A stretch of DNA of 22,041 nucleotides. Source: a virus. A model generated the notes under the pieces. It did no database searches. It was given only the letters and a program-made list of their open reading frames with translations, and was not told the DNA's origin. Shown one piece after another: positions 2,909 to 12,040 of the stretch. Position 1 is the first letter of the stretch. The number at the start of each line of letters is the position of its first letter. Where the stretch lies: the IMG/VR virus record IMGVR_UViG_3300030329_002719, positions 1-22,041 of that record; one strand, given 5' to 3'. A program made the position numbers and the translations under genes.

Positions 2909-3326
2909 TAAGCATTTTGTATGTGGAGTTGATATTAGAGAGGACGGGTACGTTTTTGATGGTTATATAACTGCAAGATTAAAGAAAGATGGATACTATA
3001 AAGAGAATTGGAGAGAACCAAATAGTTATAAACGAAACGTTGCTAATAAAAAAATTTATAAAAAGAATTTGTATGACAAGGTATCTAACTATTTAAATGA
3101 ATATAAATTAAACAAAGGATGTCAAGAATGTGGCTACAATGAAAGTCCTTATGCTTTAGAATTTCATCATAGAGATAGACAAATTAAAACAAAAAATGTT
3201 TCAAATTTTAGAAAAAGTAGCTGGATACAGCTTGATAACATAATCAAAGAAGTAAAAAAATGTGATATTTTATGTTCAAATTGTCATAAAATTTTAACTC
3301 AAAAAGAAATAAATAATGCGTCCTGA
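2883..3326 (+). CDS. HNH endonuclease (147 aa)
   Basis: The C-terminal half has a zinc-stabilised HNH fold: Cys80-x2-Cys83-Gly, then LEFHHRD with the catalytic His pair at 95-96, a Lys/Ser linker, and CDILCSNCH giving Cys131, Cys134 and His135. All expected residues are present. The N-terminal 65 residues have repeated Tyr/Lys/Asn segments (GYITARL, DGYYKEN, SYKRN) that may bind DNA. It starts inside terS and overlaps the next nuclease by 11 bases. HNH genes beside terminases assist packaging in some phages (HK97 gp74), while others are free-standing homing endonucleases; both remain possible here. Confidence 0.8.
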   Translation: MKRLNPKTNKHFVCGVDIREDGYVFDGYITARLKKDGYYKENWREPNSYKRNVANKKIYKKNLYDKVSNYLNEYKLNKGCQECGYNESPYALEFHHRDRQIKTKNVSNFRKSSWIQLDNIIKEVKKCDILCSNCHKILTQKEINNAS

Positions 3327-3747
3327 GAAAAAATTTTGGAAAGAAATTAAAAATAAAACGTCGAATGTTAACTGGACTAGAATTGAGTCTTGGGCATCAC
3401 CTGGAGTGCCTGATTTGTTTGGAGTTTTCAAAGGTTTAAACACAAAAAAGGGAATACAATTTTGGGTTGAATTAAAATGTAACAAGTTACAAAAAGTTAT
3501 CATTTCTCCGAAGCAAATTGCATGGCATTATGCTCATACAAAGCATGGTGGTGTCAGTTATATATTTGTAAAGATTAGCAACAGGACCCATGGTCCTGGA
3601 GGCATAGCTATATTCCCAGGAAGTATGAGTCGTGAACTACATACTCATGGTTTAGATCTGTTGAACCAGGGTTCAGGGTACATGATACCTGATCCTTGGA
3701 CTGAAGAACAATTATTAAAATACCTTGAATTGCAGCCGTCGGTTTAA
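3316..3747 (+). CDS. PD-(D/E)xK nuclease, VRR-NUC-like (143 aa)
   Basis: Residues P32-D33 in ASPGVPDLFGV and E52-L-K54 in FWVELKC form a standard PD-(D/E)xK active site, with E24 as an extra acidic residue. The following ISPKQIAWHYAHTKHGG and SYIFVK match the Q-motif and strand of VRR-NUC/resolvase-like phage nucleases of 100-150 residues. It likely cuts branched DNA or supports recombination or packaging. It overlaps the HNH gene by 11 bases. Oddly, its last nine codons (KYLELQPSV) and stop are the beginning of repeat unit 1, so the C-terminus may have been acquired from the repeat family. Confidence 0.65.
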   Translation: MRPEKKFWKEIKNKTSNVNWTRIESWASPGVPDLFGVFKGLNTKKGIQFWVELKCNKLQKVIISPKQIAWHYAHTKHGGVSYIFVKISNRTHGPGGIAIFPGSMSRELHTHGLDLLNQGSGYMIPDPWTEEQLLKYLELQPSV

Positions 3748-3781
3748 TTCGAACTATTAGTATAAATTCCCGGCCGGCCGG
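3718..3781 (+). repeat. Palindrome-bearing repeat, unit 1
   Basis: AAATACCTTGA at +0, TAGTATAA at +40 (3758) and the 12-bp palindrome CCGGCCGGCCGG at +52 (3770-3781). The first 30 bases encode the end of the upstream nuclease. Sequence between the boxes differs from the other units while spacing is fixed. Confidence 0.85.
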
Positions 3782-3894
3782 ACCGTGATTTCATCTCTTG
3801 TCAAGTTCTAGAATCACTAGGTTTTCTGCCAATTTTTAGTTCCATCTGAAGCGTGCAGCCGCAGCTGCTGCCAGGAGTCAGGATCCTGTAATCA
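3782..3894. other. Inter-repeat sequence with secondary boxes
   Basis: No supported gene. It holds TTTTCTGCCA at 3822-3831 followed by an A/T run (a box shared with 3991 and 4809), GAAGCGTG near 3849 (shared with the stretch after unit 4), a GC-rich CAGCCGCAGCTGCTGCC stretch near 3856, and ATCCTGTAAT at 3883-3892, which also precedes unit 5. Confidence 0.6.
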
Positions 3895-3957
3895 AAATAC
3901 CTTGAGTTTCAGCCGTTTGTTCATGGATCCTGTTTAGTGAAGTTTCACCGGCCGGTG
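3895..3957 (+). repeat. Palindrome-bearing repeat, unit 2
   Basis: AAATACCTTGA at +0, TAGTGAAG at +40 (3935), and the 12-bp palindrome CACCGGCCGGTG at 3946-3957. Its downstream edge, GCAGCGAA at +62, is shared exactly with unit 3, so units 2 and 3 form a sub-family. Confidence 0.8.
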
Positions 3958-4047
3958 CAGCGAACCAGTTCATTAACTTTTCCCAGAAGTCTGCCATTTT
4001 TTTCCTGAAACATGAACGCTGATCCAGGAAGGTGAGATGCTTCATCG

Positions 4048-4111
4048 AAATACCTTGAGGCACAACCTAGAATTTGGGGGCTTCTTATAGTGAAGTTTGG
4101 CTGGTCCAGGC
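4048..4111 (+). repeat. Palindrome-bearing repeat, unit 3 (degraded palindrome)
   Basis: AAATACCTTGA at +0 and TAGTGAAGTTT at +40 (4088). The GC palindrome is eroded to GGCTGGTCCAGG, but the GCAGCGAA edge is kept at +62. TGAGATGCTTCA at 4033-4044 precedes it, a box seen again at 4852-4863. Confidence 0.75.
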
Positions 4112-4157
4112 AGCGAAGCTGAGATGTTATCTATTTAAAAAAAATGAAACTTCCCTG
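4112..4157. other. AT-rich spacer before promoter
   Basis: A third TGAGATG box lies at 4120-4126, then an A/T run. No gene or hairpin is seen here. Confidence 0.4.
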
Positions 4158-4187
4158 TTGACTTATAATAAGTTATAACTATATATG
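4158..4187 (+). promoter_or_regulatory. Candidate promoter, copy 2 of AATAAGTTATAA element
   Basis: TTGACT at 4158-4163 is followed after 16-18 bases by an overlapping TATATA/TATATG (4180-4187), a good sigma70-like promoter. The spacer holds AATAAGTTATAAC (4167-4179), whose AGTTATAACT is palindromic. The start of transcription would fall at about 4192, exactly where the leader helix begins. Confidence 0.55.
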
Positions 4188-4191
4188 TAAC

Positions 4192-4266
4192 GTAGAGCAT
4201 CTAAACACTGGCGACTGTGGATATACTGGGTCGCACTTGTTAGTCTTGTATATTCATTTGCTCTAC
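4192..4266 (+). ncRNA. Structured leader or small RNA (75 nt)
   Basis: GTAGAGCA at 4192-4199 pairs perfectly with TGCTCTAC at 4259-4266. Within it CTAA 4201-4204 pairs with TTAG 4240-4243, and GCGAC 4211-4215 with GTCGC 4230-4234 around a 14-base loop. The element starts at the predicted transcription start and ends 23 bases before the ATG at 4290. Size and closing helix recall a tRNA, but no T-arm can form. It may be a cis-regulatory leader of the 4290 gene or a separate RNA. Confidence 0.5.
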
Positions 4267-4289
4267 ACATTAACTAAAGGAGAAAGATT

Positions 4290-4670
4290 ATGGGACTAGA
4301 CCAAACTATAAAAAGTTCTGCGGGTGATGGATATGAGTGGAGAAAGCACGCAAGGCTACAACAGTTTATGGCACAAAAGTGGCGTGAACAAAACAAAGGA
4401 AAAGAGTCTGATGATTCAGGATCTCTTGGTCATCTCGGCTTTAATGCTGGTGATGGACCTGTCATCTTAAACAGGGAGTTGTTAGATGAATGGGAAAAAC
4501 AAATTCAAGAAGGTTACTATAGTTCCTTTGCGCCTGATGGATTCTTCTGGGGGCAGCAGTTTCAAGAAGAGTCAGTGAAGGAGTATAAGAAACAAGACCA
4601 AGAGGTATGTGACTGGGCTCGAACTCAATTAGAGGCTGGACATCAGATTCGGTATACATGTTCATGGTAA
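4290..4670 (+). CDS. Conserved phage protein starting MGLDQ (126 aa)
   Basis: A good AAAGGAGAAAG ribosome site precedes the ATG. The product begins MGLDQTIKSS, has EWRKHARLQQFM, a central FNAGDGPVILNRELLDEWEKQI and GFFWGQQFQEES, and ends RYTCSW. The layout (MGLD start, WRK-H helix, an I/V-L-x-x-x-L-L-D-x-W segment, a G-FFxG turn) matches a conserved family of small phage proteins of unknown role, seen in my experience in marine phages. It is flanked by repeat units 3 and 4, has its own promoter and structured leader, and is followed by a hairpin, so it looks like a self-contained cassette. Confidence 0.7.
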   Translation: MGLDQTIKSSAGDGYEWRKHARLQQFMAQKWREQNKGKESDDSGSLGHLGFNAGDGPVILNRELLDEWEKQIQEGYYSSFAPDGFFWGQQFQEESVKEYKKQDQEVCDWARTQLEAGHQIRYTCSW

Positions 4671-4683
4671 CTAATGCATCCTG

Positions 4684-4703
4684 CCCCGCTCAAATGAGCG
4701 GGG
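4684..4703 (+). terminator. Strong hairpin after 4290 gene, no U-tract
   Basis: CCCCGCTC 4684-4691 and GAGCGGGG 4696-4703 form a perfect 8-bp stem with an AAAT loop 13 bases after the stop. TAATTGAAA follows instead of a T run, so it may be a weak terminator or protect the RNA 3' end. Repeat unit 4 starts six bases later. Confidence 0.5.
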
Positions 4704-4709
4704 TAATTG

Positions 4710-4773
4710 AAATACCTTTGATGGCAGCCATTCCTGGTTGTTATTTATATAGTATGAGTTTCCGGCCGGCCGG
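4710..4773 (+). repeat. Palindrome-bearing repeat, unit 4
   Basis: AAATACCTTTGA at +0 (one extra T), TAGTATGA at +40 (4750) and CCGGCCGGCCGG at +52 (4762-4773), extended to a 14-bp palindrome by flanking T and A. CTGCCA followed by an A/T run recurs downstream at 4809, and TGAGATGCTTCA at 4852. Confidence 0.8.
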
Positions 4774-4872
4774 AGTTACAAGAAACAATAGAAAACTTTC
4801 CCAGTTTTCTGCCATTTTATTTGATTCGAAGCGTGGATCGGATCCTGAAGCTGAGATGCTTCAGAATTTGAT

Positions 4873-4986
4873 ATGGGAGAAAACCTAGTGTTTTGGCCAA
4901 TTGTTTGGATCGCCTTCATCGCCTGGATCGCAGCTGCGCAGCTCCAGCACGGGCTGTTGCAGCAGCTGTTGATGTTTATCCTGTAA
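4873..4986 (+). CDS. Possible 37-aa membrane peptide between repeats
   Basis: An ORF from ATG 4873 to TAA 4986 reads MGENLVFWPIVWIAFIAWIA then an AQLQHGLLQQLLMFIL tail: a plausible membrane helix with an amphipathic end. There is no Shine-Dalgarno site, and the DNA is much more GC-rich than neighbouring genes. Its last codons (ATCCTGTAAT) belong to a box that also precedes unit 2. It could be a real small membrane protein carried by the repeat region, or a chance ORF; I lean slightly to chance. Confidence 0.25.
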   Translation: MGENLVFWPIVWIAFIAWIAAAQLQHGLLQQLLMFIL

Positions 4987-4991
4987 TATTG

Positions 4992-5054
4992 AAATACCTT
5001 GATTGGCAACCTGGTCTTAAGTTTATACTAATAGTATAATTTTCCGGCCGGCCG
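4992..5054 (+). repeat. Palindrome-bearing repeat, unit 5
   Basis: AAATACCTTGA at +0, TAGTATAA at +40 (5032) and CCGGCCGGCCG at +52 (5044-5054). The +40 box is part of a TTATAC/GTATAA inverted repeat here. ATCCTGTAAT at 4978-4987 precedes it. Confidence 0.85.
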
Positions 5055-5217
5055 AACCAACCGAACTTCCTGTGTAATTTTTAGGAATTTGTATAAAATG
5101 GGTCTGAAAGTGGGTTTTACCAAAAACCGCCAAAATTTTTGTCTCATATTTAAGCGACAATGAGGTTTAAGAGGTTGGGTGGTATGATTAGACCTAGAAA
5201 AAAATGTAATTTAGTTG
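5055..5217. other. Non-coding spacer
   Basis: No supported gene. A weak hairpin GGTTTT 5113-5118 with AAAACC 5123-5128 is followed eight bases later by TTTTT; this might be a poor terminator. Nothing else is recognised. Confidence 0.35.
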
Positions 5218-6263: not shown

Positions 6264-7745
6264 ATGTCTTTGGATTTCGACACAACAAATCCTGAAGAAG
6301 CAAAAGCCTTAATGTTGAAGTTAGAACTTCGACAAAAAGAATTAGATACTGCTGCAAAAGCAAAAGAAAATTTTTTGGATTTTGTTAGGGCCGTATGGCC
6401 TGAGTTTATATCAGGATACCATCATAAAAAAATTGCAGAAAAATTTCAGCAACTGAAAGATAAAAAATTGAAACGTTTGATCGTGAATATGCCACCAAGG
6501 CACACGAAGTCTGAGTTTGCATCCTATTTACTTCCAGCATGGATCATGGGCCATGCACCCAAAACCAAGATCATACAAGCAACGCACACCGGCGAACTGG
6601 CCTTCCGCTTCGGAAGGAAAGTAAGAAACCTGATGGATCACGAAGATTACAAACGAGTATTCAAGGACGTTGAATTATCACAAGATTCTAAAGCTGCAGG
6701 TAGATGGGAAACAAATCACGGAGGAGAATATTTCGCAACAGGTGTAGGTGGTGCTATTACAGGTCGTGGTGCAGATCTATTAATAATTGACGATCCTCAT
6801 TCCGAGCAAGATGCATTATCGGAGACAGCATTTGATAATGCTTATGAGTGGTACACATCAGGACCAAGACAACGTTTACAACCAGGAGGTGTCATTGTTA
6901 TTGTTATGACAAGATGGTCTACAAAAGATTTGACAGGAAGATTAGTAGGAGCTCAAAAAGAAATTAAAGCAGATCAATGGGATATTATAGAATTTCCAGC
7001 AATCTTTCCAAAGTCGGGTAATCCTATATGGCCTGAGTATTGGAAGAAAGATGAGCTGTTATCAGTTAAAGCGTCATTGAATGAACAGAAGTGGCAAGCA
7101 CAATGGCAACAAGCACCAACCTCCGAAGAAGGATCTATTATTAAAAGAGAATGGTGGATGAAGTGGGAATCTAAAACACCTCCTAATAACATACAACATA
7201 TTATACAAAGCTATGATACAGCGTATTCTAAAAAAGAAACAGCAGACTACAGTGCTATTACTACCTGGGGTGTATTTACATCTGAAGCTGACGGGAAAGT
7301 TTATTTAATATTATTAGATGCAATTAAAGGTAGATGGGATTTTCCTGAATTAAAAAGAAAGGCCCTTGCTAAATATAAACAGTACGAGCCCGAAACAATC
7401 ATTATTGAAGCTAAAGCGAGCGGATTGCCCCTGACCCATGAACTCCGACAAGTAGGTATACCTGTTACGAACTTTACACCAAGCAAAGGAAATGATAAGC
7501 ATGTAAGAGTAAACGCTGTAGCACCGGTATTCGAAGCAGGTCAGGTATGGGTTCCTGATGAGCGGTGGGCGCAAGAAGTCATTGAGGAATGTGCTGCCTT
7601 TCCTTTTGGTGATAACGACGATTATGTTGACTCAACTACACAAGCCGTGCTACGTTTTCGCCAAGGAAATTTTGTTACACTACCAGATGATTATTGGGAA
7701 GAACCACGAGTACCTGATTACATGGGTGAGGAGAGATATTATTAA
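6264..7745 (+). CDS. terL: Terminase large subunit (493 aa)
   Basis: TerL is the ATP-driven packaging motor and nuclease that docks on the portal. The ATPase half has Walker A-type PPRHTKSE (77-84), an ATHTGE segment (107-111), Walker B DLLIIDDPH (171-179) and the coupling motif TRWS (216-219). The nuclease half has the RNase H-like acidic residues D318 (SYDTA), E382 (IIIEAK) and D453/D456 (DDYVDS). Length is normal. AGGG sits very close to the ATG, so the ribosome site is poor. The stop overlaps the next ATG (TAATG). Codons for residues 87-125 are noticeably richer in C/G endings than the rest. Confidence 0.93.
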   Translation: MSLDFDTTNPEEAKALMLKLELRQKELDTAAKAKENFLDFVRAVWPEFISGYHHKKIAEKFQQLKDKKLKRLIVNMPPRHTKSEFASYLLPAWIMGHAPKTKIIQATHTGELAFRFGRKVRNLMDHEDYKRVFKDVELSQDSKAAGRWETNHGGEYFATGVGGAITGRGADLLIIDDPHSEQDALSETAFDNAYEWYTSGPRQRLQPGGVIVIVMTRWSTKDLTGRLVGAQKEIKADQWDIIEFPAIFPKSGNPIWPEYWKKDELLSVKASLNEQKWQAQWQQAPTSEEGSIIKREWWMKWESKTPPNNIQHIIQSYDTAYSKKETADYSAITTWGVFTSEADGKVYLILLDAIKGRWDFPELKRKALAKYKQYEPETIIIEAKASGLPLTHELRQVGIPVTNFTPSKGNDKHVRVNAVAPVFEAGQVWVPDERWAQEVIEECAAFPFGDNDDYVDSTTQAVLRFRQGNFVTLPDDYWEEPRVPDYMGEERYY

Positions 7746-10700
7746 TGGTTGATTTATCAGGTATACCACAATACGATTCAGGAGTTTTAGATGTTCCTGT
7801 AGATAGAATGGATGCTAAAACCAAAGAAACTTATAAAACTGGTAATGCTAAAATTGACAGGTATCTCAATTCTAAATTTAATAAAAGTGTTAATAACATA
7901 ACCAATAAACTTGGTAATTTTATATTTAATCCAAAAAAGAAAATTAATTTAGTTATTAAAGGTGCTGATCTTTTAACCGGAGGAGGTGTCAGCAAAAATG
8001 TAGAATTAGGAGTAAGTCAATTAAGGGCTATAGGAGAGGATGCTTCTAAACAAGTTCTTTCTCAAATGGGTAAATTAAGAAATCTTTTAAAAAAAAATTT
8101 TGGAATAACACATACCAGAGGTATGGATAAGTCAAAACTGACTCCTGCCCAATTAAAGTTAGTTAATGAAATAGATGACTTAGCGGATTTTGAAATTGGA
8201 TTAAGATCTACTTACAAAGCTGATACGACTGTATTAGCTAATGCTATTAAAAAAGACAAAACTCCTATGGTAAAAAAATTATCAAAAGAGATAGACCAAG
8301 CAGAAAATTGGAAAACTACTTTTAGTAATGTGTTTCCAGGAATAAAAACATCAAGACAAACTTCTAAAAAAGTTTCACAACTTCCTGGTATTGCAGCTTC
8401 AACACCTTCTGGATCGGCTAAGGTTTATCAATTTACTTATAAAGGTTTGGCAGCTAAACATGGAGGTAATAAAAAATTAGACGAGATAATTAGAAATAAA
8501 AAACATCCTAAGCATCAAGAAGTAATGGATACATTTAATGATTCTATAAAAAAATATTCTAAACAAATGGATGAACTGTTTCAATACAGAGATGATATGT
8601 TGGAAAGCTATGCTGATGATTTAATAGAAGTATATACTAAATATGGAGATGATGCAGGACAAGGTGTTATAGATTTTGCTCACAAGTTTCCTGTTAGTCA
8701 AACAGGAAGAATGAATCAAGCGAGCGAGTTATTGGATAAAGCAGGTAATCCTGAATATTTATATTTATCACCAAGTTTTGTTAATAGAAAAGTCCAAGTA
8801 TTTTTTGATGACTTAGCAGAAAATGTTATGACTGGAAAACCTTTGTCATATGTAAACAGACCTCTTGCTACTCAAGGATATAAAACAGCTACAAGACGAG
8901 TTGATCCTTTTGATAATATGACAATGAATATGGCTGAAGGAGTTTATACAAGTCCTAAACAATTTGATGAGTTTATAGAAATAGGAAACAAATCTAAAAG
9001 TGCAGATTCAATAAAAAGTATATTAAATAAAATTGATTTAGGTTTAAAAAATGTAAAAGCACAAAGTTCTTATTCAATATATAATCCAAGAGCTAAAGCT
9101 TTAGCTGGAACTAACAAAGATACATTTAATTTAACATTAGGTAAAAATTTAGAAACTAAAGCAGACATGAAAGAATTATTAAATTATTTATTAGATCCAT
9201 CAGTAACTAAAGATACTTTAATATCTCCTTTCAAAGACGGAGGATATAAAGAAGGTGCTCAACCTACAAATTCTGTAGAATCTTTTCAAACTTTCTTTGA
9301 AGAGGGGGTCGGGGATAAGGAATACGATCTCAGGACTCTTGGTACTTTATGGAACGGAAAACTATTAACGGCCCCTAGTTCAGGGTTCGGTGGAGAATAC
9401 GCAGCGGAAAATTTACCTATCTTAAAAGATATGGACCCTTTATCCAGAGGAATCTGGAATACAGTCGCACCTTACGGTGAGAAAGCATTCGATATTCTTG
9501 ACACCCTATTCAGGCTCCCTGGCGCCTTTGCAGGAGATACAGCTGAAGGATTAGGTGTAAGTGAAGATGAAGCAAATAAATTACAAGCAGAATTAAATAC
9601 AATGTTATTTATGCCTGTTGCAGGCGGACCGGTTTCTAACGCAGGTAGAATAAAAAATGCACAGAACGCTGTGAACAATGTTAAAAAAGTAAAAAAAGAA
9701 ATAATAGATTCTTCTAAAACAATTGAAAAACAAGGACCAATGCCTTTAGGAGAAAAAACAGGTCCTTTTCAATTAACTAAACCAAAGAATGTTGGATTAG
9801 GTTTTACTTCAAGAATTAATCCCAACACAAAAAAATTACAATTGTCTTACGAAGGAGAAGTAATAGGAGAATTTAATTCTCTTGCAGATGCTCAAGCTAC
9901 AATAAAGAAAATTAATGCTGGCAAGTGGGAAGGTAAAACAAATTATAAAAGTGAAAAGAAAACATCTACTAAACCTTGGATTATAGAATTTCCGGGTCAA
10001 ACAAATACAATGGAGTTTAAGACAAGGAAAGATGCACAACTTTATATAGATAAAAATTATGCAGGTACCGATCCAATTAATTTACCTACAATAAAAAAAA
10101 TGCCACCAAAGGCTGGAGAAAAAACAGGAGACTTTTCTCGTTACTCTGTAATGTTTGATGATATAGCTGAAAGTTATTCTCCTACAGAAACTAAAACAGC
10201 TTCACAATGGATCGGAGAATTAAAGAATAGAGGACATACACAAGAACTTGATAAAACTGGTTTTGGGTATTCTTTATGGGAATTAAAAGATCAAAAAATT
10301 TCAGCGGCAGATTTATTTACATTACGAAAAAATAAGGGAACACAAATTAAAACGGAACCTATTCGAATGAATAAAAAAGAACAACTCGATTTAAGAGGAG
10401 AGTTTGATACTCTTACAAATGAGTATAATGATTTTTTAAATGTAAGTGGTAATTTTAGAGGATCTTTACCTACCAATGTTCAAAATTTTATTCAAACAAA
10501 AGTAAATAATTTTCAAAAATATTATCAAAGAGTTTTAGATAATACCGATGGTAGAATAAATGCCAGACAAGAAGCTGTTCTTAATGATAAGATTGATAAA
10601 ATATTAGCAGAAATTACTATAGCTGCAGAAAAAGCTCAAGGTGGAAATGCTTGGACTCCTATGTTAAGAGATACTAATGCTGCTAATTTTTCTCTTAATG

Positions 10701-12040
10701 TTTATCAAGCATCTAGTGATATATTAACCAGAACACAAGCTGGATCTGCTGCTCGTAGATTTTTAAATGGTTTAAAAAATATAAGAGAAAATTTTGGGAC
10801 CACGGCAAGTCATAAAGAATATACTCTTCCTGGAAAAGCTCAAAATACACATAAGACAGAAGTGTACACTTACAATCCAATAAAAGGACAAAAAAATACT
10901 AAAGATATAGGAAACACTCACATGGGACAAAACAATGAATTAGCCCATGTAAGAAAAACAGAAAGAACAAGTACAGATGGTCAAAATGGAATTTTATTAG
11001 ATGAAATGCAATTTGATACAATGAGGAATGTTGCAAAAAGTGAGAAACCTGTTTTTAAACCAGAGATTCATGCCAACCAAGCAGAAGCTTTAACCAACCA
11101 ATTAAACCAATTAGAAAATCAAAAGAATAGAATATTTAATAGTGAATTAAAAAAGTTATTAATTAAATCTGATGTTGATGATGCAACAGATTATAATTTA
11201 CCTCAAAACCAAAGAGCATTGATGGAAAGAGTTAAAGAAATTCCTGATAATGATCCTAATTTAGCTAAAGTAAAAGAAAAGATATTAGCTGATTTTGGAT
11301 CAGCTGATGAGTTTATGGCACAACAAAACAATAAGGCTTATTCAAAAGTTGATGACGAAATCAAAAGAATAAATACAGAATTTAAAGATACTCCTACTCA
11401 AGCTAATAGTATGCCTGATATTCCGTTTAGACAACAAACGGAAATGATAAAAGAAATATTAAAAAGAGAAATTGAACTTGCTATTAAAGGAAATAAAGAT
11501 TTTATTGCTATACCTTCACCAGAAGTTGTTATGGGTTATGAACAAGGAGCTGGTTCTAATTTAGCTGTAGCTTTTAATAATATTTATAGAAAAAGATCTT
11601 TAGAAGCAATTAGAAGTATACAAGACGAGTATATAAAAAAATTAGAAAAACTGGGAATTGATTCTAAACCATTTAGCATAAGAGCAGGGGACGATGTAGA
11701 AATGTTTATTGCTTGGGATAAAAAAGCACCTACTAATGATACGTTTATGGCTAAGATGAAATCAATTTATAATAATTTTAATTTAAATGATCCTGCAATT
11801 TTAGAAATGATTGAGGCCGGGACTTATAAAGAACCATTTAGACCTATAAATTATGGAAGTGTGCCTGGAGGTAAAAATGCGGTTCAACCAGGAATAGTTA
11901 TTGATTTAAGAAACATAAAAGGGTTTGATAGAAAACTTCTAGCAAAAATTGGTTTTCAAGAGTATAAAGAAGGTGGTAAAACCGAGATTAACAAATATTC
12001 AGCATTAGCTGGAATAGATATATTAGGAGTAGCAGTTTAG
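7745..12040 (+). CDS. Very large protein of unknown role between terL and portal (1431 aa)
   Basis: The single uninterrupted frame fills 4.3 kb and is coupled to terL and portal by overlaps of one base at each end. It is Lys/Asn/Ser-rich, mainly helical with strand-rich insertions, and has no signal peptide and no clear membrane span. Residues 520-600 (GFGGEYAAENLPILKDMDP, then a WNTVAPYG segment) are more hydrophobic and coded with more C/G-ending codons. Two GxKTGxF-type segments (around 678 and 796) may be an internal duplication. The C-terminus has a compact RAGDDVEMFIAWDKK ... GIVIDLRNIKG part. Position and size suggest an internal virion or ejection protein, but I recognise no family. 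Confidence 0.75.
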   Translation: MVDLSGIPQYDSGVLDVPVDRMDAKTKETYKTGNAKIDRYLNSKFNKSVNNITNKLGNFIFNPKKKINLVIKGADLLTGGGVSKNVELGVSQLRAIGEDASKQVLSQMGKLRNLLKKNFGITHTRGMDKSKLTPAQLKLVNEIDDLADFEIGLRSTYKADTTVLANAIKKDKTPMVKKLSKEIDQAENWKTTFSNVFPGIKTSRQTSKKVSQLPGIAASTPSGSAKVYQFTYKGLAAKHGGNKKLDEIIRNKKHPKHQEVMDTFNDSIKKYSKQMDELFQYRDDMLESYADDLIEVYTKYGDDAGQGVIDFAHKFPVSQTGRMNQASELLDKAGNPEYLYLSPSFVNRKVQVFFDDLAENVMTGKPLSYVNRPLATQGYKTATRRVDPFDNMTMNMAEGVYTSPKQFDEFIEIGNKSKSADSIKSILNKIDLGLKNVKAQSSYSIYNPRAKALAGTNKDTFNLTLGKNLETKADMKELLNYLLDPSVTKDTLISPFKDGGYKEGAQPTNSVESFQTFFEEGVGDKEYDLRTLGTLWNGKLLTAPSSGFGGEYAAENLPILKDMDPLSRGIWNTVAPYGEKAFDILDTLFRLPGAFAGDTAEGLGVSEDEANKLQAELNTMLFMPVAGGPVSNAGRIKNAQNAVNNVKKVKKEIIDSSKTIEKQGPMPLGEKTGPFQLTKPKNVGLGFTSRINPNTKKLQLSYEGEVIGEFNSLADAQATIKKINAGKWEGKTNYKSEKKTSTKPWIIEFPGQTNTMEFKTRKDAQLYIDKNYAGTDPINLPTIKKMPPKAGEKTGDFSRYSVMFDDIAESYSPTETKTASQWIGELKNRGHTQELDKTGFGYSLWELKDQKISAADLFTLRKNKGTQIKTEPIRMNKKEQLDLRGEFDTLTNEYNDFLNVSGNFRGSLPTNVQNFIQTKVNNFQKYYQRVLDNTDGRINARQEAVLNDKIDKILAEITIAAEKAQGGNAWTPMLRDTNAANFSLNVYQASSDILTRTQAGSAARRFLNGLKNIRENFGTTASHKEYTLPGKAQNTHKTEVYTYNPIKGQKNTKDIGNTHMGQNNELAHVRKTERTSTDGQNGILLDEMQFDTMRNVAKSEKPVFKPEIHANQAEALTNQLNQLENQKNRIFNSELKKLLIKSDVDDATDYNLPQNQRALMERVKEIPDNDPNLAKVKEKILADFGSADEFMAQQNNKAYSKVDDEIKRINTEFKDTPTQANSMPDIPFRQQTEMIKEILKREIELAIKGNKDFIAIPSPEVVMGYEQGAGSNLAVAFNNIYRKRSLEAIRSIQDEYIKKLEKLGIDSKPFSIRAGDDVEMFIAWDKKAPTNDTFMAKMKSIYNNFNLNDPAILEMIEAGTYKEPFRPINYGSVPGGKNAVQPGIVIDLRNIKGFDRKLLAKIGFQEYKEGGKTEINKYSALAGIDILGVAV

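Follow-up and report, generated by a model that had tools for sequence, protein, structure and literature searches.

Among T4-type phages, the PeSLs (promoter early stem-loops; Arbiol 2010, Comeau 2014) are, in the description given in PMC4503421, a repeated intergenic composite motif that sits between genes in variable regions and is tied to gene shuffling among related phages. Cluster O mycobacteriophages carry more than 30 genome-wide copies of a simple 17-bp dyad of unknown function (PMC4351075), while the SAS/ESAS of Cluster K mycobacteriophages are composite repeated motifs with inverted repeats at gene borders, located at gene starts (PMC3203893). In integron attC arrays and phage CALINs, each exchangeable gene is followed by a repeated site, all in one orientation (PMC9892861); CALINs are by definition without an integrase.

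The window analysed here, 22,041 nucleotides of viral DNA, represents part of the genome of an HTVC023P-type pelagiphage, with a portal protein 51% identical to those of HTVC023P and HTVC027P; pelagiphages of this group infect SAR11 and are abundant ocean viruses. Between terS and terL lies an accessory island with five copies of a multi-box repeat, here called units. Like the PeSLs as described in PMC4503421, these are composite motifs between genes of a variable region, and gene shuffling is found here as well; unlike PeSLs in that description, they seem to lack a standard early promoter, the -10-like TATAG box having no -35 hexamer at 17 bp, and they have no consistent stem-loop terminator (a palindrome is missing from some units of clade 1 and from clade 2, both introduced below), and there are only 3-7 copies per array across both clades, at one locus and in a different phage group. 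The best reading is that the units resemble T4 PeSLs in kind and are probably not members of that family. With the Cluster O repeats they share group specificity, a location partly inside ORFs, absence from the checked hosts, and deletions and insertions attributed to recombination between copies, but the units form a larger multi-box module in a single orientation, confined to one island (PMC4351075). SAS/ESAS resemble them as composite motifs at gene borders, but the units lie at gene ends, where SAS/ESAS lie at gene starts (PMC3203893). In contrast to attC sites, the R boxes are lacking: over 65 units, RYYYAAC matches at 0 positions and GTTRRRY at 3. No PF00589 match was obtained in 8 records searched for an integron integrase, although a host enzyme might take its place. 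With no tyrosine or serine recombinase found in the contigs and cultured phages searched, and no attC boxes, the array is not an integron, and we rejected the attC, tyrosine integrase and serine resolvase readings alike, as their defining features were not found. The PeSL, Cluster O, SAS/ESAS and attC systems come closest among known ones, but by defining features none of them fits. The initial annotation knew of no described family of this sort; this holds for the sequence of the unit, which appears to be new, but its kind, a motif repeated at gene junctions and associated with the shuffling of modules, is known from T4 PeSLs and the Cluster O repeats. Within the literature covered (open-licence PMC papers), the main text of a study of 80 HTVC023P-type genomes makes no mention of such repeats (PMC9599517).

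Anatomy of the repeat array

The array has a GC content of 42.5%, compared with 34.5% for the remaining window. An HNH gene, terS and a nuclease-like gene lie on one side of the repeats and terL on the other, and the features of the region are as follows.

2423-2908: terS (Pfam Terminase_2 and PHROG 51)
3316-3747, plus strand: nuclease-like gene (PHROG 2165, 2e-16); its 3' end enters unit 1, and it forms the left border of the array
3718-3784, plus strand: unit 1, AAATAC..GCAGCC..TAGTAT..CCGGCCGGCCGG, palindrome at 3770-3781; overlaps the 3' end of the nuclease ORF
3826-3839, plus strand: M2 box after unit 1, CTGCCAATTTTTAG
3895-3957, plus strand: unit 2, AAATAC..CAGCC..TAGTG..CACCGGCCGGTG (3946-3957)
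3984-4030, plus strand: M2 box after unit 2, CAGAAGTCTGCCATTTTTTTCC (3984-4005), and M3 inverted repeat, TTTCCTG..CAGGAA (4001-4030)
4048-4114, plus strand: unit 3, promoter-proximal subtype without the long palindrome, GGCTGGTCCAGGCAGC at 4099-4114
4158-4185, plus strand: sigma70-like promoter of the cassette gene, TTGACT-N16-TATATA
4290-4670, plus strand: cassette gene MGLDQ, 126 aa, no assigned function; a WGGP or GP88-family gene stands here in relatives
4684-4703, plus strand: hairpin after the cassette gene, CCCCGCTCAAATGAGCGGGG
4710-4776, plus strand: unit 4, AAATACCTTTGATGGCAGCC..TATAGTA..CCGGCCGGCCGG (4762-4773)
4802-4822, plus strand: M2 box after unit 4, CAGTTTTCTGCCATTTTATTT
4888-4986, plus strand: small hydrophobic ORF between units 4 and 5, GTG start, VFWPIVWIAFIAWIAAAQLQHGLLQQLLMFIL
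4992-5058, plus strand: unit 5, AAATACCTTGATTGGCAACC..TAGTAT..CCGGCCGGCCGA (5044-5055)
6264-7745: terL

The five units reported initially, starting at 3718, 3895, 4048, 4710 and 4992, were all recovered on the plus strand and are far beyond chance: AAATACCTT followed by TAGT exactly 40 bases on occurs 5 times against 0.01 expected, a number that no shuffle reached, and CCGGCCGG is found at 6 overlapping positions, all of them within units, against 0.02 expected. Some details of the initial description need correction. The shared upstream box is exact in four units, but unit 4 reads AAATACCTTTGA and not AAATACCTTGA; the 12-mer palindrome CCGGCCGGCCGG, assigned to three units, is present in two (at 3770 and 4762), while unit 5 has CCGGCCGGCCGA (at 5044); and the palindrome does not keep a fixed offset of 52, as CACCGGCCGGTG of unit 2 starts at 3946, an offset of 51. 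The rigid spacing stands for the distance from AAATAC to TATAG, whereas the gap to the palindrome shifts by several bases in relatives. Unit 3 had been regarded as simply eroded. In most relatives, however, the unit closest upstream of the cassette promoter is likewise without the long palindrome and carries a GGCTGG..CC.GGGCAGC-type sequence, and unit 3 thus looks like a positional subtype instead of an eroded copy.

The upstream box consists of AAATAC, invariant across the aligned units, and a second half-site ending in GCC, the two starting ~11 bp apart. The TATAG box comes next; its TAG has an offset of 40 in clade 1, except in the last unit of four relatives (41), and of 38 in clade 2. 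Comparing copies within a genome, identity is 100% for AAATAC, 80% for the GCC box and 79% for the TATAG box, compared with 33% for the filler, which is close to random. The boxes that had been seen to recur as a mosaic between units do so, but as parts of the repeat itself and not as separate extras: in both clades, every full unit is followed at a distance of ~85-150 nt by M2 (GGCAGAAnnCnGCC plus an A/T run) and M3 (CCTGAAGC..CCAGG), and with them the complete repeat measures ~155-180 bp.

The GC palindrome stressed in the initial annotation is real in clade 1, where the mean longest dyad is 10.9 nt (5.2 in shuffles) and the arms change in concert (GTTCGGCCGGCCGAAC, CGGACCGGCCGGTCCG), but it is restricted to that clade; in clade 2 the longest dyad is 5.4, against 5.1 in shuffles. 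The palindrome is a clade-specific addition. An outer inverted repeat, CCTTGA..TCAAG, was discarded as it is seen by eye in some units only and is not conserved.

All units share one orientation, that of the genes, and begin within ~40 nt of the stop codons of the nuclease gene, the cassette gene and the small hydrophobic ORF; units 1-3 stand in tandem with no gene in between. Small hydrophobic ORFs of 32-52 aa also occupy the post-cassette slot of relatives (contigs L005, 5361-5459; L106, 7198-7314; L012, 4753-4911; L018, 7677-7796). Those of the window and of the relatives examined have little sequence in common, and they might be holin-like or toxin-like peptides.

Distribution among relatives and gene exchange

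Close relatives were gathered by a TerL search, and more by further scans; they are metagenomic contigs, many of them short. With a profile of the unit, 3-5 copies were found in ~20 related IMG/VR contigs (clade 1), always between the nuclease gene and TerL. A sister clade (clade 2, TerL 77% identical) has 5-7 diverged units of the form AAATACGCTGACTTTTCGCC..TATATAGAT in identical synteny. The array is no oddity of this one genome. An earlier, strict pattern scan of IMG/VR had given 0 matches because the pattern fixed too many boxes. A phage-record DNA search also returned 0 matches, and the strict unit pattern gave scattered single matches only in 84,980 bacterial and archaeal genomes, none of them in SAR11. 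By profile search, units are absent from HTVC023P and HTVC027P and from everything outside the island in full contigs of 26-62 kb, and none were found at other operons. Since the island alone carries units in the genomes searched, a genome-wide promoter class was rejected, and copies confined in this way do not form a dispersed mobile repeat of the REP, MITE or RPE type. Conserved boxes with filler that is near random within a genome, in the same synteny in two clades, favour a functional module over drift, as the initial annotation had argued.

That the units flank a slot for exchangeable cargo was likewise borne out. Across 26 contigs, the slot is always filled by a single gene, which is MGLDQ, WGGP or a GP88-family gene, the three being unrelated, and this gene changes while the units persist. 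On a tree of the flanking genes (three genes, 417 columns, quick search) the slot changes three times, with at least 2 independent replacements and one across clades. The MGLDQ genes of the window and L016 fall among WGGP carriers, a well-supported placement, and have an origin separate from that in L007. The WGGP protein of the clade 2 contigs L161 and L162 is 63% identical to that of L106, despite far greater divergence of the flanking genes. Both MGLDQ and WGGP are common in other marine viral contigs.

In several contigs, blocks change near units. The backbone of L004 resembles L015, but the part with units 1-2 is L012-like. Identity between L004 and L012 drops from 88% to ~30% where unit 3 begins, and is regained just past unit 4; long identical stretches in the flanks keep these crossovers from being placed within a unit, which weakens the case for the unit as the joint. 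Ahead of the cassette, L005 and L015 are one unit short, and their unit 2 has, by eye, a unit 2-like start and a unit 3-like end. In L162, an extra promoter-gene-hairpin-unit block follows the small hydrophobic ORF and stands directly before a unit.

Nature and possible roles of the units

Where units overlap ORFs, each of the three reading frames is used; a single ORF of L018 translates unit 3 to KYADFSP and unit 4 to NTPKSRR. Units are open in several ORFs, and KYLDWQP and EIPxMAA superficially suggest protein-coding conservation, but we rejected it, since the reading frame changes from ORF to ORF and can do so inside a single ORF. The folded RNA offered as one option in the initial annotation fares no better: in the covariation check across homologues, RNAalifold found 0 pairs in 42 aligned units, the aligned repeats of both clades together have no consensus structure, and those of clade 1 alone give a single 3-bp stem, located in the palindrome. 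Folding energies and z-scores of the units are within the range of shuffles, and neither an Rfam match (a known covariance model) nor covarying helices were found for the unit. Reading in three frames and the lack of a fold together imply that the conserved entity is double-stranded DNA, or else a foldless single-stranded sequence, and the pattern points to DNA recognised by a putative protein.

Our preferred explanation, to which we would give slightly less than an even chance, is a cis-regulatory element, specific to the lineage and placed at gene junctions, that would also act as a joint for recombination. Each unit would be a double-stranded DNA element marking gene ends in the island, and one putative trans-acting protein would read every copy; fixed boxes with free filler, repeated in one genome, are best explained by such a reader. 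This would most likely be a transcription regulator, encoded by the phage or by its host, that works together with the -10-like TATAG box and/or the adjacent sigma70-like promoters of island genes. Transcription control is the likeliest role since lineages that differ in their upstream boxes share TATAG and sigma70-like promoters are nearby. Speaking against this explanation, the TATAG box has no normal -35 hexamer at 17 bp, the gene-less copies (units 1-3) are hard to explain by one promoter per gene, and other operons were found to carry no units. The repeated homology at gene ends, in one orientation, might in addition allow homologous recombination to add, swap and delete genes with their reading frames intact, and the units may be the actual exchange joints; for gene swaps between units, homologous recombination alone suffices.

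The window also encodes, at 1273-1593, a small protein with a GcrA-like or sigma-region-4-like HTH that scores below the Pfam cut-off and is a possible candidate for the reader. Enrichment of GANTC (CcrM/GcrA) in the array was inconsistent between relatives and was dropped.

We consider it unlikely that the units are instead RNA elements at mRNA 3' ends, recognised as RNA and serving processing, stability or termination. Their position close behind stop codons in the orientation of the genes would suit such a role, and some fillers do form hairpins (e.g. GCAGCCGTTACCACGGCTGC in unit 4 of L007), but the absence of a consensus structure, folding energies equal to those of shuffles, and tandem copies without an intervening gene all argue against it. 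Somewhat less probable still is an array that serves packaging (pac/cos-type) or as a replication origin, with TerS or an initiator as the binding protein. The array is always next to terS and terL, and several lineages carry unrelated repeats at the same place; however, L111 with type II units and L016 with type I units both have a TerS 98% identical to that of the window, L004 mixes unit types, and the copies extend over 1-2 kb with genes in between.

Recombination sites, another of the options first put forward, would require an integron-like array served by an unidentified or host recombinase, and we regard this as improbable. The order of gene plus unit, the single orientation, the swapped slot gene and the L162 insertion directly before a unit are all as expected for such an array, but neither PF00589 nor PF00239 is matched in the searched contigs or cultured phages, the attC boxes are lacking as described above, and the swaps are explained by homologous recombination. 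Decaying duplications without present function, i.e. tandem copies of an ancestral small-ORF region, are very unlikely: some inter-unit boxes do resemble pieces of the small ORFs and copy number differs between relatives, but the boxes are conserved next to near-random filler and the rigid spacing is kept in diverged genomes.

Gene ends and cassette leaders in other lineages

More distant relatives with WGGP or MGLDQ carry, at gene ends, copies of (T)CCATT 5-7 bp apart, with TATAGT(A) 24-36 nt later, as measured with a loose pattern; in L253, the gene-end repeat is TTTTCCATTGCCCGTGAAT..TATAGTA. The upstream box thus differs in these lineages while the TATAGT box at gene ends is unchanged. In HTVC027P and others, the TerS-TerL region has GCTTGnn heptads, which in HTVC027P lie directly upstream of the TTGACA-type promoters of gp33 and gp34, two genes that form their own early-to-middle expression cluster in a time course (PMC12753301). 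As these repeats are not homologous to the units, they lend support by analogy only.

We can speculate, with much more reserve than for the cis-regulatory junction element itself, that HTVC023P-type phages maintain a cassette platform without a known recombinase, in which a lineage-specific DNA-binding protein would read a gene-end code made up of a variable upstream box and a constant TATAG box. Such a code might both control the island genes and fix the sites of exchange, with most or all of a lineage's copies changing their upstream box together. A gene-end code common to several lineages would be a concrete, testable site for gene trading and expression timing, and the units could serve as a marker to locate and delimit swappable cargo genes in viromes.

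Heptad arrays were noted in L083 (HTVC027P) at about 10099-10235 and 10996-11346, and in L057 and L066. The TerS-TerL region of L028 (4424-7960) has repeated TGTCGCA-CCCCCTTCGGGGG hairpins, then TACTACATCT.

Outside the window, the 5' leaders of WGGP and MGLDQ cassette genes contain a candidate compact structured RNA (L203, about 2827-2880; L214, 2858-2910; L232, 1774-1826; L264, 2939-2990). It has a conserved ACCGAAT, an inner helix CGTTT/AAACG and an outer helix P1 that takes the forms GTGGC/GCCAC, GTGGGG/CCCCAC, GGTCGG/CCGACC and AATTGG/CCAATT; 5/6 of the P1 pairs are standard in 35/35 distinct copies, with up to 4 pair types, and the four loci scanned gave no Rfam match. In the window, the leader between promoter and cassette gene (4193-4268) has a different hairpin, GTAGAGCA..TGCTCTAC, and leaders may therefore be swapped with or within cassettes. 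A tRNA gene is present in a WGGP-bearing contig (L187, 2200-2272).
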